Source: Methylocystis sp. MJC1 (GTDB lineage Bacteria > Pseudomonadota > Alphaproteobacteria > Rhizobiales > Beijerinckiaceae). Taken from it: a stretch of DNA of 64,000 nucleotides. Position numbers and translations under genes: made by a program. The stretch is from NCBI RefSeq assembly GCF_026427715.1, contig NZ_CP107558.1, forward strand, positions 781,001-845,000, in the 5' to 3' direction. The notes below the pieces were generated by a model. It saw only the letters and a program-made list of their open reading frames with translations, was not told the origin of the DNA and ran no database searches. Shown in pieces: positions 8,151 to 62,554 of the stretch (its first letter is position 1; the number at the start of each line of letters is the position of its first letter).

Positions 8151-8567
8151 TTACCGCCGCCCAGGCGCGAACTCCATGCGTATGCGCCCCGAGCGGGCGC
8201 GGAACATATTCCCGCCGTACCCCATTGCTCGGTTGGAGGCGCTGGCTTTCGCCGCGTGGCTCCTGCCAAGGGTTCCCTTTTCGCCTTCGGCCGCAATCCC
8301 TGGATAGCTCGCGCCATGTTGGCCCCGCATCGGCCCGAAAGAGGCGAGGCAGAGATTATAGGCGTTGGCGTCCTTGATCGCCTCGCAGTCGTCTATCTTG
8401 CGCGGACCGGCGAGGGCGGGAGACGCCAGGAAAAGGGCGAGGATAGCCAAGAGAACGTCGTTGCGAGCGAAGCGAAGCAATCCAGGGGTGGCGCGCCGGC
8501 TCTGGATTGCTTCGTCGCTGCGCGCCTCGCAATGACGGCGGGGATCTTCGTGCTCGCTGGACCTCAC
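8151..8567 (-). CDS. Small secreted protein of unknown function, 5' end overrun by a palindromic repeat
   Basis: From the apparent GTG start, which overlaps the pheT stop codon (GTGA), this frame encodes 138 aa. Residues 11-37 are translated family A repeat. Then comes a hydrophobic export signal ([16 protein letters not shown]), followed by a short domain with [20 protein letters not shown] and an Arg-rich end [11 protein letters not shown], which resembles small conserved hypothetical proteins of Hyphomicrobiales. The native start was probably near the TTG at 8450. The repeat therefore seems to have replaced the original start region while keeping the frame open, and whether the fused form is made and exported is unknown. 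Function not recognised. Confidence 0.55.
8456..8538. repeat. Family A palindromic repeat, full copy, inside the 5' end of a coding frame
   Basis: Outer arms CGTTGCGAGCGAAGCG / CGCCTCGCAATGACGG and inner arms AGCAATCCAG / CTGGATTGCT, the same family as at 2306. It lies between the pheT stop and the signal-peptide code of the downstream small gene. Confidence 0.9.
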
Positions 8568-10975
8568 CGCAGCGTCGCCCCAGTCTTCTTGCTCGCCTCG
8601 GCGACGATCTTCTGCGCGACGGCCTCGATCTCGGCGTCGGTCAGCGTCTTTTCGCGCGGCTGGAGCGTTACGGCGACGCCGACGGACTTCTTGCCCTCGG
8701 GCACGCCGACGCCCTCATAGACGTCGAAGACGCTGACATCCGTGATGAGCGTTTTGTCTGAGCCCGCCACAGCCTTGACGAGATTGCCCGCCGGCGCCGA
8801 GCGGTCGACGATGAAGGCGAAGTCGCGCGAGAGCGGCTGAAGATCGGAGAGGTCGAGCTTCGGCTTGATCTTGGTCGGCTTTGCCTTGGGGGCCGGCAGC
8901 ACGTCGAGAATGATCTCGAACGCTGCGATCGGTCCCTCGACGTCGAGCGCCTTCAGCGCGCGCGGATGCAATTCGCCGAAATAGCCGACGACGGCCTTGG
9001 GGCCGAATTGCAGCGTCGCAGAACGGCCCGGATGGAACCAGGCTGGCCCGCCGGGGACGACCTGCAGGCCGCCGGTCGCCACGCCAAGCGCGCCCAGGAG
9101 CGCCATTACATCGGCTTTGGCGTCGAAGGCGCCGGCGCGCTGCGCGGGTGCGGACCAGTGCCGGCCGGCACCAGCAAGACCGCGGCGAATGCCGGCGGCG
9201 GCGAGGCGTTGGCCCTTCTCCGAGGGGTCGATGAAGATTTGGCCGACCTCGAAGAGGTCCTGGTCGCCCAGCCCGCGCGCGGCGTTGCGATGGGCGGCGG
9301 CGACGAGCCCCGGCAGCAGGCTCGGGCGCATGTCGGAAAGATCGGCCGCGATCGGATTGGCCAGCGCCAGACCCGGCGTCCCGCCGCCGAAAACTTCCGC
9401 TTGCTCCTTGGAGACGAAGGACCAGGTGACGGCCTCGACGAGCCCCTGCGAGGCCAGCGCACGGCGGGCGTTGCGGGCGCGTTTCTGCATCAGCGTCAGC
9501 ACGGCGGCCGCGACGCCCTCTGCGCGCGGCAGTGGCGTCGAAGGCACATTATCGACGCCATAGATGCGGACGATCTCCTCGACGATATCCGCCTTGCCCT
9601 CGATGTCCGGCCGCCACGTCGGCGCGGTGATATTGGCGCGCTCCGTTCCGGTCTTTTCGACGGTGAAGCCCAGGCGCTCGAGAATGGCGGTCGCCTCCGC
9701 TTGCGTCACGTCGACGCCCGCGAGGCGCTGCGTCTCGCTCCAGGGGAAATCCACGACGCGCGCGTTGCGTGGGACCGCGCCGGCGATAACGAGCTGAGAA
9801 GCCTCGCCGCCGCAAAGCTGCAAGACGAGCTGCGTCGCGAGCTCTATTCCCGGGAGAGCGAAGTCGGCGTCCACGCCGCGCTCGAAACGGTAGCGCGCGT
9901 CGGTGACGATGCCGAGCTTGCGGCCTGTGTGGGCGATGTTCTGCGGGTCCCACAGCGCCGACTCGATCAGCACGTCGGTCGTGTCGGCGCTGCAGCCGGA
10001 AACCTCACCGCCCATGACGCCAGCGATGGATTCGACGCCATTGTCGTCCGCGATGACCACCATGGTCTCGTCGAGCGCATGCGTCTTGCCGTCGAGCGCG
10101 AGCAGCGTCTCACCGGCGCGCGCGCGCCGTACGGCAAGATTGCCCTTCACCTTATTGGCGTCGAAGACATGCAGCGGGCGAGCGCGGTCGAAGGTGAGAA
10201 AATTGGTGATGTCGACGAGCGCATTGATGGGACGCAGGCCAATCTCGCGCAGACGCTTTTGCAGCCACGACGGACTTGGGCCGTTCTTGACGCCCTTCAC
10301 CAGGCGCAGGCCGAAGAAGGGCGCGAGATGTCTGTCGTCTTCCGTGAAATCGAGCGTCACTCCGACGGGGCAGGGGAACTTGCCCTCGACAGGGAGAATG
10401 TCCTTCTCCTTCAGCACGCCGAGCCCCGCCGCCGCGAGGTCTCGTGCGACGCCATAGACGCCGGCGGCGTCGGGACGATTGGGCGTGAGGTTAATCTCTA
10501 TGACCGGATCGTCGAGCCCCGCCCATTGCGCGTAGATGGCTCCGACCGGGGCGTCCTCGGGCAGCTCGATGATGCCTTCGCTTTCCGTCGCAAGGTCGAG
10601 CTCCTCGAAGGAGCACATCATGCCGAGCGACTCGACCCCGCGAATGACGCCCTTGCCCAGCGTGATCTTTTTGCCTGGAATATATGTGCCCGGGGCCGAG
10701 AAGACCGTCTTGAGGCCGGCGCGCGCATTGGGCGCGCCGCAGACGACCTGCACCAGATCGCCAGCGCCTGTATCGACCTTGCAGACGCGAAGCCGGTCGG
10801 CGTTCGGGTGCTGCTCCTCCTCGGCGATTTGCGCGATGGTGAAGGCTTTCAGCTGCGCGGCGGGATCGTGCACATGCTCGACTTCGAGGCCGATGCGCGT
10901 GAGCGTCTCGACGATCTCGGCGAGCGTGGCGGAAGTGTCGAGATGCTCTTTGAGCCAGGAGAGGGTCAGTTTCAT
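8564..10975 (-). CDS. pheT: Phenylalanine-tRNA ligase beta subunit
   Basis: Beta subunit of the alpha2-beta2 phenylalanyl-tRNA synthetase, 803 aa, normal length. It begins [20 protein letters not shown]. The N-terminal tRNA-binding OB domain ([15 protein letters not shown] at about 57-71), the B3/B4 editing region, the B5 domain and the C-terminal anticodon-binding FDX-ACB domain (starting near [12 protein letters not shown]) appear in order. Its start overlaps the stop of the HEPN-like gene by 4 bp (ATGA), so the two are translationally coupled. It belongs to the pheS-x-y-pheT operon. Confidence 0.98.
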
Positions 10976-12879: not shown

Positions 12880-12916
12880 GTCGGCGCGTCTGTTTGCGGA
12901 ATAGGCGGTAAGCGCC

Positions 12917-12999
12917 CGTCATTGCGAGCGAAGCGAAGCAATCCAGGGCGGCGATGGCGACCCCTGGCTTGCTTGGCGGCTTTCCCCTCGCAATGACGG
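12917..12999. repeat. Family A palindromic repeat, full copy, upstream of pheS
   Basis: Arms CGTCATTGCGAGCG / CCTCGCAATGACGG with inner AGCAATCCAGG / CCTGGCTTGCT; the right inner arm has diverged slightly. It fills part of the 307-bp gap between the phosphate acyltransferase gene and pheS, where I see no gene. Confidence 0.88.
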
Positions 13000-13073
13000 C
13001 GGAAGCCAGAGCCTGCCCCGCTGCCTGAAAGATTTCACAGGCCTTCTGCCACGCGCGGGGGCTTCTGTCGAGG

Positions 13074-43171: not shown

Positions 43172-43199
43172 CGATCAATGCCGCCTTGAAAAGTCCCGC

Positions 43200-43281
43200 C
43201 GTCATTGCGAGGAGCGCAGCGACGAAGCAATCCAGAGCCGCAATGACGCCCTGGATTGCTTCGCTTCGCTCGCAATGACGG
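43200..43281. repeat. Family A palindromic repeat, full copy, overlapping the MFS gene start
   Basis: Arms CGTCATTGCGAGGAGCG / CGCTCGCAATGACGG and inner GAAGCAATCCAGAG / CTGGATTGCTTCG. The ATG of the downstream transporter is the ATG inside GCAATGACGG, the terminal part of the repeat. Confidence 0.9.
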
Positions 43282-45571: not shown

Positions 45572-45654
45572 CGTCATTGCGAGCGAAGCGAAGCAATCCA
45601 GGGCCCCATCGCGGCGCTGGATTGCTTCGTCGCTTACGCTCCTCGCAATGACGG
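45572..45654. repeat. Family A palindromic repeat, full copy
   Basis: Arms CGTCATTGCGAGCG / CTCCTCGCAATGACGG, inner GAAGCAATCCAGG / CTGGATTGCTTCG. Adjacent to the family B copy, 30 bp downstream of the ABC transporter gene end. Confidence 0.9.
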
Positions 45655-45683
45655 CGAGCGTCGTGCTGTCGCCGTCCGCCCTG

Positions 45684-60751: not shown

Positions 60752-60798
60752 GGCCGTTCCTCTCCGTGTCATCTGATCCGGCGGCTGAACCGCGACCT

Positions 60799-60829
60799 TT
60801 GTCCGCGAGCGGCGCCCCTTGCATATATT
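60799..60829 (+). promoter_or_regulatory. Promoter-like element, near-copy of the ald promoter
   Basis: TTGTCC, a 17-bp spacer and CATATATT; 27 of 31 positions match the element at 62498, including most of the spacer. On this strand it points to the acyltransferase-like operon at 61102, though the leader would be about 265 nt. Confidence 0.4.
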
Positions 60830-60959
60830 CATCGCGGATAATTTCGGCCGGTCTCGGCGCAATATTTTTGGCGGCGATTCAAAGTGACGTCCGAAAAGGA
60901 CGCCCCGCCGCGGATGCGGAAACCACGCGCCTGCGATAGTGAAGACCGTGCTATGCAGA

Positions 60960-61092
60960 AGTAATTCATGCAAAACAAATAATTAACTACTGGAATATTG
61001 TTATTAAAATAAAGTATTATATAGTTTTATGTGTGCGCCAATTTTCTGACACTATTGATTTATACTACTATGTAGTGAGTAAAAAGTAGGAG
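60960..61092 (+). promoter_or_regulatory. AT-rich promoter region of the acyltransferase/diiron operon
   Basis: About 130 bp of markedly AT-rich DNA in a GC-rich genome. A TATACT hexamer at 61061-61066 overlaps the perfect 13-bp palindrome ACTACTATGTAGT (61064-61076), and AGGAG lies at 61088-61092. The palindrome is a candidate operator over the -10 region. No gene is seen in 60752-61101. Confidence 0.5.
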
Positions 61093-61101
61093 TAAATTGA
61101 A

Positions 61102-61794
61102 ATGATGTCTAACGAAAGTTTGCGAATGTTACGCATTGTTTCTCTTCCCGGCTCGAATCCGTCGCCCAGTCAATTGAGCGACTATAAGAGCGCCTACGCC
61201 ATGTGGAAGATGGTCTGGTCCGAGACATTCAGGGAATTGGATGGGTTGGACAGAATGTTCGCCGACGATTTCTCCCGGCAGGACGAAATCCTCTGCGTTT
61301 TTCGCGGGCCCGTGTGTTTGGCGCTGGGCCTTATGCGCTGGAGAGATATCGAGCTCCCGAGCGTGCGTGAGGATTCTTACTTTCAAATGTGGCCGACGGA
61401 AGCGATCGATAAGCTGTCCGCCAATGGGAAAGACATCGTCATCTGCTGCAATTTGACCGTCCATCCCATGGCCCGGAGCAACGCGCTCGGCCTGCCGATG
61501 AAAGACGTCATGATGGGCCTTCTGATTCAGCGCTTTCTAGAATCGGGCGCCGACGCCATGACCGGCGCCATGCGCGCTGATCGCGGCATGCACACGACGA
61601 CTTATCGGCTCGGCGCGACCGCCGTGGCGACCGGTTTGGTTCACCACAATTCGCCGGTCGATCTCGTCGCGTTCTTCCCTGAGAATATGACCGGCGGGGA
61701 GGCGGAGGTTGCGAGCGCAGTCCGATATCTCTGGGGCGTCAAGCGGCAACATCCCATCCAAAGGGCTCAATACAAGGGGGCGAAAAATGCGTGA
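61102..61794 (+). CDS. GNAT-fold acyltransferase, distantly like acyl-homoserine-lactone or N-acyl-amino-acid synthases
   Basis: 230 aa. ATG at 61102 with AGGAG 9 bp upstream; the second codon is also ATG. The layout suggests the autoinducer-synthase branch of GNAT: a helical N-terminus (DYKSAYAMWKMVWSETF), an acidic loop (DRMFADDFSRQDE), beta strands ILCVFRGPVCLALGLMRWRD, then LTVHPMARSNALGLPMKDVM in the acyl-CoA/ACP-binding position and a long helix LLIQRFLESGADAMTGAM. The invariant Arg/Trp/Asp pattern of LuxI is not clearly conserved, so AHL synthesis should not be assumed. It overlaps the diiron gene by 8 bp. Preceded by AT-rich DNA, a possible sign of transfer. Confidence 0.5.
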   Translation: MMSNESLRMLRIVSLPGSNPSPSQLSDYKSAYAMWKMVWSETFRELDGLDRMFADDFSRQDEILCVFRGPVCLALGLMRWRDIELPSVREDSYFQMWPTEAIDKLSANGKDIVICCNLTVHPMARSNALGLPMKDVMMGLLIQRFLESGADAMTGAMRADRGMHTTTYRLGATAVATGLVHHNSPVDLVAFFPENMTGGEAEVASAVRYLWGVKRQHPIQRAQYKGAKNA

Positions 61795-62419
61795 AGCGCT
61801 CAATGTTCTTTTGAACAACGTGAAAAAGGAAATGTCGGCTTGCCCTTGGGAAAATCCGTACGCCTACGCCGATTTTCTCGCGCAGACTTATTACTACGTC
61901 TGCCACTCCACGAGGCTTCTGGGCCTTGCGGCAGGCCTTTGCCGGGTCGACAGAGACCTGCTTCATCGCCGCTTCGTTCAGCATATCGGCGAGGAAAAAT
62001 TGCATGAGCGCCTGGCGTTGAACGACCTGCGCGGTCTGGGGCTGAAGCTCGAGGACTTTCCCGAACGTTCGATTACAAAGGCGTTTTACGAGGCGCAGTA
62101 TTACAAGATCGAGCGCCTCGATCCCACGGCGCTCTTTGGTTACATCCTTCTTCTGGAAGGCGTCGCCGTGTCTCTTTGCCCTGAAATTTATCAGCGCATC
62201 GCGCGGGCGCATGGCAAGCAGTGCGCAAACTTCTTGAGGGTTCATGTCGAGGAGGACGTCGATCATTTGCCGAAAGCCTTCGCCCAGATCGAGGGCCTGT
62301 CGGCGAGTCAGAAAAACGATATCATGATAAATATGGCTCAGACCGCTGATCTTTACGGCAAGATCATCGCGCAGGCGGCTCAAAGCCCGAGCGTCGATGC
62401 GCGCGCAAGGGCGGCTTAG
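61787..62419 (+). CDS. Haem-oxygenase-like diiron oxidase/oxygenase (HDO superfamily)
   Basis: 210 aa from the ATG at 61787 (AAGGGGG upstream); it overlaps the acyltransferase-like gene by 8 bp, so both are translated together. All-helical. The candidate metal ligands follow the HDO pattern: Glu70-x2-His73 in EEKLHERLALNDL, Glu124 in LLLEGVAVSL, and His153-x3-Asp157-x2-His160 in HVEEDVDH. HDOs carry out N-oxygenation, desaturation, decarboxylation or C-C cleavage of amino acids and fatty acids. TenA/PqqC-type non-metal relatives lack these residues. Substrate unknown; the partner gene suggests an acylated amine or amino acid. Confidence 0.78.
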   Translation: MREALNVLLNNVKKEMSACPWENPYAYADFLAQTYYYVCHSTRLLGLAAGLCRVDRDLLHRRFVQHIGEEKLHERLALNDLRGLGLKLEDFPERSITKAFYEAQYYKIERLDPTALFGYILLLEGVAVSLCPEIYQRIARAHGKQCANFLRVHVEEDVDHLPKAFAQIEGLSASQKNDIMINMAQTADLYGKIIAQAAQSPSVDARARAA

Positions 62420-62497
62420 CAATATCGGGCTGATAAGCGCGACGCTCGCGTCCCACATGGGCGCGAGCGTCCTAACTGCGCGGCTTTACCGGAGCCC

Positions 62498-62528
62498 TTG
62501 TCCCGGACCGGCGCCCTTTGCATATATT
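62498..62528 (+). promoter_or_regulatory. Promoter of the alanine dehydrogenase gene
   Basis: TTGTCC and CATATATT with a 17-bp spacer, ending 27 bp before the ald start codon, leaving room for a short leader with GGAGG/GGAG ribosome sites. A near-identical element lies at 60799. Confidence 0.55.
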
Positions 62529-62554
62529 GTTGGAGGAATTTTTCGGAGCGGCGG

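Follow-up and report, generated by a model that had tools for sequence, protein, structure and literature searches.

A conserved two-gene module in Methylocystis joins an acyltransferase of LuxI-like fold to a putative haem-oxygenase-like dimetal oxidase

In a 64-kb window of the genome of the methane-consuming bacterium Methylocystis sp. MJC1 (64,000 nucleotides; contig NZ_CP107558.1, positions 781,001 to 845,000), we analysed an operon of two overlapping genes, for an acyltransferase-like protein (AT) and a haem-oxygenase-like dimetal oxidase (HDO). AT (61102..61794, + strand) begins with ATG, ends with TGA and encodes a GNAT-fold, LuxI-like acyltransferase of 230 amino acids (aa) from a family for which there is no Pfam or NCBIfam model. 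HDO (61787..62419, + strand) runs from ATG to TAG and encodes a haem-oxygenase-like protein of 210 aa that matches PF14518. The two reading frames share the 8 bp ATGCGTGA (61787..61794, + strand), just as the initial annotation had described, and the geometry of this overlap is identical in the five genomes found to carry the pair. AT and HDO form a real, conserved and uncharacterised two-enzyme module, whose oxidase is of a known kind and recurs with other acyltransferase-type genes. The host genome measures 4.54 Mb, and the closest named relatives at the locus are Methylocystis, with the AT of Methylocystis sp. Sn-Cys being 89% identical. The GC content of the operon is 0.566, against 0.637 for the window as a whole, and 26 of 627 sampled windows of equal size are as low.

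HDO has the haem-oxygenase-like fold and belongs to the corresponding superfamily. The three histidines and three carboxylates named at the outset as metal ligands (Glu70, His73, Glu124, His153, Asp157 and His160), which we assign by motif, are all present, and none of them varies among the 47 aligned relatives or the 82 HDO loci surveyed. Family, fold and invariant ligand residues fit a predicted dimetal oxidase of the HDO superfamily. A TenA/THI-4 thiaminase was rejected, as PF03070 scores 14.3 bits, below its cut-off of 22, and PF14518 passes. Three further residues, His66, Gln104 and Asn182, are invariant in all 47 HDOs of the AT type but occur in only 8, 6 and 7, respectively, of the 82 wider loci. 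When a profile of this clade was compared with PDB sequences, the sole match at E < 0.001 was 3dde, a Shewanella protein of unknown function, and no characterised HDO was matched. Like CADD, UndA and HrmI, 3dde shares with HDO the fold, the pattern of three histidines and three carboxylates and PF14518, but these proteins are only 11–16% identical to it.

AT was placed by structure and profile–profile comparison rather than by sequence search. Structure comparison gives it the GNAT/LuxI fold and membership of the GNAT superfamily, where an unrelated fold would have counted against the initial annotation; as matches to AT, general GNATs stand about one Z unit below BjaI. AT itself has no match in Pfam or NCBIfam (E up to 10) or in PHROGs or PADLOC (E up to 0.1), and PDB sequence searches returned chance-level matches or none. 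Eighteen AT relatives yielded three single, weak matches in Pfam (DUF4170, 0.048; AAA_8, 0.15; DUF3306, 0.27). The LuxI family (PF00765) does not match AT and is not among these three families, the only ones matched by any of the 19 members. Neither FeeM (PF21926) nor T_hemolysin (PF12261, 'thermostable hemolysin') matches AT or the other members, with direct profile–profile E-values of 0.07 and 0.33.

The residues tell a similar story. The LuxI signature, in the numbering of the host's own LuxI, consists of Arg24, Asp45, Asp48, Arg69, Glu100 and Arg103, each of which is found in 18 or 19 of 19 LuxI sequences. The aligned residues in the window's AT, read by eye from the profile alignment, are Trp35, Asp55, Ser58, Arg79, Ile114 and Asn117, so that only Asp55 and Arg79 are kept. 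Across 66 AT sequences, Trp35 is universal (66/66), followed by Ile/Val114 (62/66), Asp55 (59/66), Ser/Thr58 (59/66), Gln/Asn117 (57/66) and Arg79 (30/66). Asp55 is therefore the one signature residue that most AT proteins retain, in keeping with the earlier description of AT as having the layout of an N-acyl synthase without the LuxI residue pattern. Because most of the signature is lost, we do not class AT as an acyl-homoserine lactone (AHL) synthase; it is a new acyltransferase branch of the LuxI-like fold. It also differs from the acyl-CoA branch of LuxI proteins (BjaI, RpaI) in having no luxR neighbour. As had been noted, the window holds no LuxR-type receptor, since both autoinducer-binding domains of the genome lie elsewhere: one beside the host LuxI (G000:C1:1646663-1648006), the other in a sequence with an in-frame TGA (G000:C4:96770-97186). 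With an ordinary LuxI and LuxR elsewhere in the genome, the host AHL system is separate from the AT–HDO operon.

Conservation of the pair had been set beforehand as a test that could refute its significance, and the pair passes it. It lies at the same site in 4 of 39 searched genomes of the genus, the host included, and a fifth copy, with different flanks, occurs in G079, a genome from another genus within the family. G079 is probably Methylosinus, since P0007, which bears that name, shows the same identity. HDO lies 3′ of AT with the identical overlap in all five AT-bearing genomes. On the Bdellovibrio plasmid pBdHM1 (L195), a divergent AT, matched at E 3.4e-9 when three loci were searched, is followed by HDO, both annotated as hypothetical. 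A 4.7-kb metagenomic contig from the IMG/VR viral collection (L198) carries the genes in reversed order, HDO ahead of AT (E 1.6e-40), and here the two overlap by ATGA. The order AT–HDO is thus seen in six of seven such loci. Six AT relatives in the protein tables can be paired with listed HDO relatives by equal size of the longest contig (24835, 3241, 107282, 5133, 4601 and 6387 bp), a circumstantial form of linkage. Among 398 sampled Pseudomonadota genomes, AT was found in one, the host itself; none of 13 and none of 6 pattern matches in IMG/VR proved to be relatives; AT had no match in the plasmid collection; and the Bacteriovorax relative P0175 had none among phages or plasmids. A scan of IMG/VR for HDO gave two loci, of which L198 carries the AT relative. 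The second, on a 35-kb contig (L197:4989-5606; IMGVR_UViG_3300020202_000059), encodes an HDO of the AT type with no AT found alongside; a search of 50,697 phage records gave nothing that matched it.

A profile of AT-type HDOs (E 1e-10) matched 78 of the 398 Pseudomonadota genomes, and we surveyed the surroundings, 3.2 to 10.5 kb each, of the 76 loci left after setting aside the host and G346. An acyltransferase-type gene of another family is present in 66 of the 76: T_hemolysin in 62, FeeM in two and Acetyltransf_5 in two, counts that rest on the labels of partner profiles, which were derived from loci of this kind once eight of the proteins had been assigned by Pfam. T_hemolysin lies on the strand of HDO in 62 of 62 cases, and 58 of these loci also contain an AMP-forming ligase and an SDR. 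One FeeM gene is directly upstream of HDO (L063) and the other is convergent (L066). No acyltransferase was recognised in the remaining ten loci, four of which run to a contig edge. The link between HDO and T_hemolysin is accordingly strong, and those with FeeM and Acetyltransf_5 are few. Within the family of G210, the search for close relatives of the FeeM-paired HDO found that HDO itself in 1 of 74 genomes.

The T_hemolysin operons resemble AT–HDO in combining a LuxI-related protein with an oxidase of PF14518 type; they differ in having an additional ligase of acyl-activating type and an SDR, and in that the first protein is of a different family. The relation of T_hemolysin to LuxI, seen by profile (E 2.9e-5), makes 'thermostable hemolysin' appear doubtful as a functional label. 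Operons of T_hemolysin, AMP-binding ligase, HDO and SDR are common in Pseudomonadota (as seen in the survey of L063–L142 and in L194 and L196), and annotated examples are found on Pantoea and Citrobacter plasmids. In searches of open-licence PMC papers, no paper surfaced on the pairing of GNAT, LuxI, FeeM or T_hemolysin proteins with HDO, or on the T_hemolysin–ligase–HDO–SDR operon. In a tree of 50 HDO sequences, the AT-type clade comprises 30 rows with support of 98/96. It includes all ten HDOs labelled as AT-paired (six by shared longest-contig size, P0029 by identity, and those of the window, L195 and L198) together with the FeeM-paired HDO of L063, which is positioned with less certainty; that of L066 falls outside.

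Many of these proteins also share a C-terminal feature. AT ends in alanine in 67 of 80 sequences, and in 44/54, 14/18 and 4/8 when redundancy is reduced to 70%, 50% and 40%, respectively; the commonest terminal residues are L-[KR]-[IL]-[AV]-A. An [AVIL]A ending is found in 52/80, with 33/54, 7/18 and 3/8 at the same levels. A terminal alanine occurs in 64 of the 120 closest HDOs, and Ala-Ala in 44. The corresponding alanine-terminated counts are 29/79 for HDOs of the surveyed loci, 2/68 for SDRs, 10/67 for AMP ligases, 22/65 for T_hemolysins, 5/19 for LuxI and 5/10 for FeeM. Of open reading frames (ORFs) of at least 200 aa in the window, 6/44 end in alanine and 1/44 in [AVIL]A. In the window itself, the C-terminus of AT (61777-61791) ends in KNA, a weak example, and that of HDO (62408-62416) in RAA. 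We take these tails to resemble ssrA-type degrons, a claim tempered by the fact that half of the FeeM proteins also end in alanine.

Since HDO accompanies acyltransferase-type proteins of several families, it most likely acts on what these proteins make or use. We consider it probable, with some reservation, that AT and HDO together form a small biosynthetic unit whose product is an N-acylated and oxidised small molecule, and that acylation precedes oxidation of the head group. AT, as an enzyme of LuxI/FeeM type, would take a fatty-acyl group, or a short branched or aryl group, from acyl-CoA or acyl-acyl carrier protein and attach it to an amino acid, or to a comparable amine, at the amino group. 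HDO would bind two metal ions through the six ligand residues, activate O2 and oxidise the amino-acid part of the AT product by desaturation, decarboxylation or N-oxygenation. A substrate carboxylate is a likely ligand to the metals, and we infer that this carboxylate is that of the N-acyl amino acid. Such a molecule unites the two substrate types and its carboxylate stays free, which favours N-acylation followed by head-group oxidation. The idea of an acylated small metabolite is strengthened by the wider survey, in which 66 of 76 HDO loci contain a gene of acyltransferase type from another family. Lipothrenin is a published case in which a diiron enzyme oxidises an N-acyl amino acid at a late stage, although that enzyme is AurF-like and the setting a different one (PMC10616846). 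The findings suggest a possibly undescribed group of small molecules with oxidised fatty-acyl character; that these serve in signalling or protection would be a guess.

As to the order of the two steps, acylation first is preferred by a small margin. HDO might instead act first on a free amino acid, giving for instance an alkene or an amine that is N-oxygenated or cleaved; acylation by AT would follow, trapping or activating this unusual amine. Amino acids are frequent substrates of characterised HDOs (PMC13108848), and the gene order of L198 would suit this sequence of events; the AT–HDO order of the other six loci and the FeeM family, whose title (PF21926) refers to the acylation of amino acids, speak against it, and we regard oxidation first as possible but doubtful. 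Somewhat less likely still is that HDO oxidises the fatty-acyl chain, by decarboxylation or desaturation in the manner of UndA, before or after coupling by AT, as CADD, TenA proteins and HrmI match HDO about equally well and no acyl-activating gene is recognised in the two-gene form. A reverse control weighs somewhat against the more general logic set out below. Within about 1.5 kb, none of 30 FeeM and none of 20 LuxI loci of relatives contains such an HDO, which weakens the FeeM part of the wider pattern and further sets AT apart from FeeM (PF21926, 2g0b).

Two other readings were considered. AT could be an ordinary acetyltransferase of small molecules or proteins that is merely co-regulated with an HDO active in stress protection, as proposed for Acinetobacter DtpC. 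General GNATs do score about one Z unit below BjaI, and the excerpted text of PMC13232832 has desiccation tolerance supported by an HDO in a katE operon. The partner of DtpC in that same excerpt is, however, a catalase and not a GNAT, and given the acyltransferase-type genes near most HDO relatives we find this explanation unlikely. Two small overlapping genes of low GC, with a patchy distribution and an occurrence on a plasmid, might also recall a GNAT toxin–antitoxin or phage-defence pair. This we consider very improbable: PADLOC gives no match, the second product is a metalloenzyme-type protein of 210 aa with its ligand residues intact rather than a DNA-binding antitoxin, and the gene order is reversible. 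We therefore rejected the defence reading for lack of support.

If acylation followed by oxidation is correct, a two-gene cassette small enough for expression in E. coli would yield oxidised N-acyl natural products of a new class, and a common Pseudomonadota operon whose first gene is labelled a 'thermostable hemolysin' would gain a testable function. With an AT family that lacks a Pfam model and an HDO clade that lacks a characterised match among PDB sequences, the substrate specificity of both enzyme classes is directly testable. A more general and largely unrecognised bacterial logic can be put forward only tentatively, and we think it rather unlikely to hold in full. LuxI/GNAT-type synthases of up to four families (AT, 'thermostable hemolysin' and, occasionally, FeeM and Acetyltransf_5) would each have a PF14518 diiron oxidase as partner, and the oxidised N-acyl metabolites that result would in some cases act as signals. 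In the AT branch, ssrA-like Ala-Ala or Val-Ala tails on the synthase, and often on the oxidase, would limit synthesis to short pulses through ClpXP-type proteolysis.

Upstream of AT lies an AT-rich leader of 141 bp (60961..61101, + strand) that presumably contains the promoter, with a ribosome-binding-site-like AGGAG identified by eye at 61088-61092. Its GC content is 0.248, and of 3193 windows of 141 bp sampled across the 64 kb, 1 is as low; the leaders of three sister copies have values of 0.27–0.30, and that of the Methylosinus-like copy 0.48. The AT-richness described in the initial annotation is thus borne out, but the operator-like palindrome described with it is less well supported. The dyad ACTAC-TAT-GTAGT (61064-61076, by eye) is not conserved in sister genomes, and the last 120 bp before AT contain no palindrome with 6-bp arms (shuffle mean 0.76). 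Two of the four other copies have three such palindromes each, a number reached by 23 and 7 of 500 shuffles. Matches to −35/−10-like promoters are at chance level (2, with 1.1 expected, s.d. 0.9). The leader also contains a loose inverted repeat (61039-61056 and 61082-61099, 72% complementary). A possible operator is the block GCCAATTTTCTGAC (61037..61050, + strand), whose conserved form GYCAAYWTTNTGMC, a pattern written post hoc after the alignment had been inspected, occurs at −65 to −67 in all four Methylocystis-group copies, two of which are near identical, and is absent from the Methylosinus-like copy.

The ORF 5′ of the operon is on the opposite strand, and that 3′ of it, which by its look we take to be an alanine dehydrogenase, is on the + strand. 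An imperfect direct repeat of 67 bp flanks the operon, with one copy upstream (60781..60847) and the other before the next gene (62480..62546); compared pairwise, the two are 74.6% identical (E 2.6e-10), and L002 and L003 likewise contain both. The site is empty in 24 of the 39 genomes of the genus, by a hand count of flank matches within about 140 bp. Among eight empty-site loci, the repeat is matched once over 46 bp in three (L203, L205 and L210), and the other five have matches of 15–20 bp only. The operon looks acquired. The flanking repeat, with its single match at some empty sites, is a possible footprint of insertion, and the data fit a single acquisition in which the intergenic region was duplicated, with loss elsewhere as the alternative. 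A separate, short interspersed repeat of about 80–107 bp occurs in the window at 2298-2403, 8461-8541, 12916-13002, 43196-43281 and 45572-45676, and all five copies match one place in L002 (about 9827-9943).
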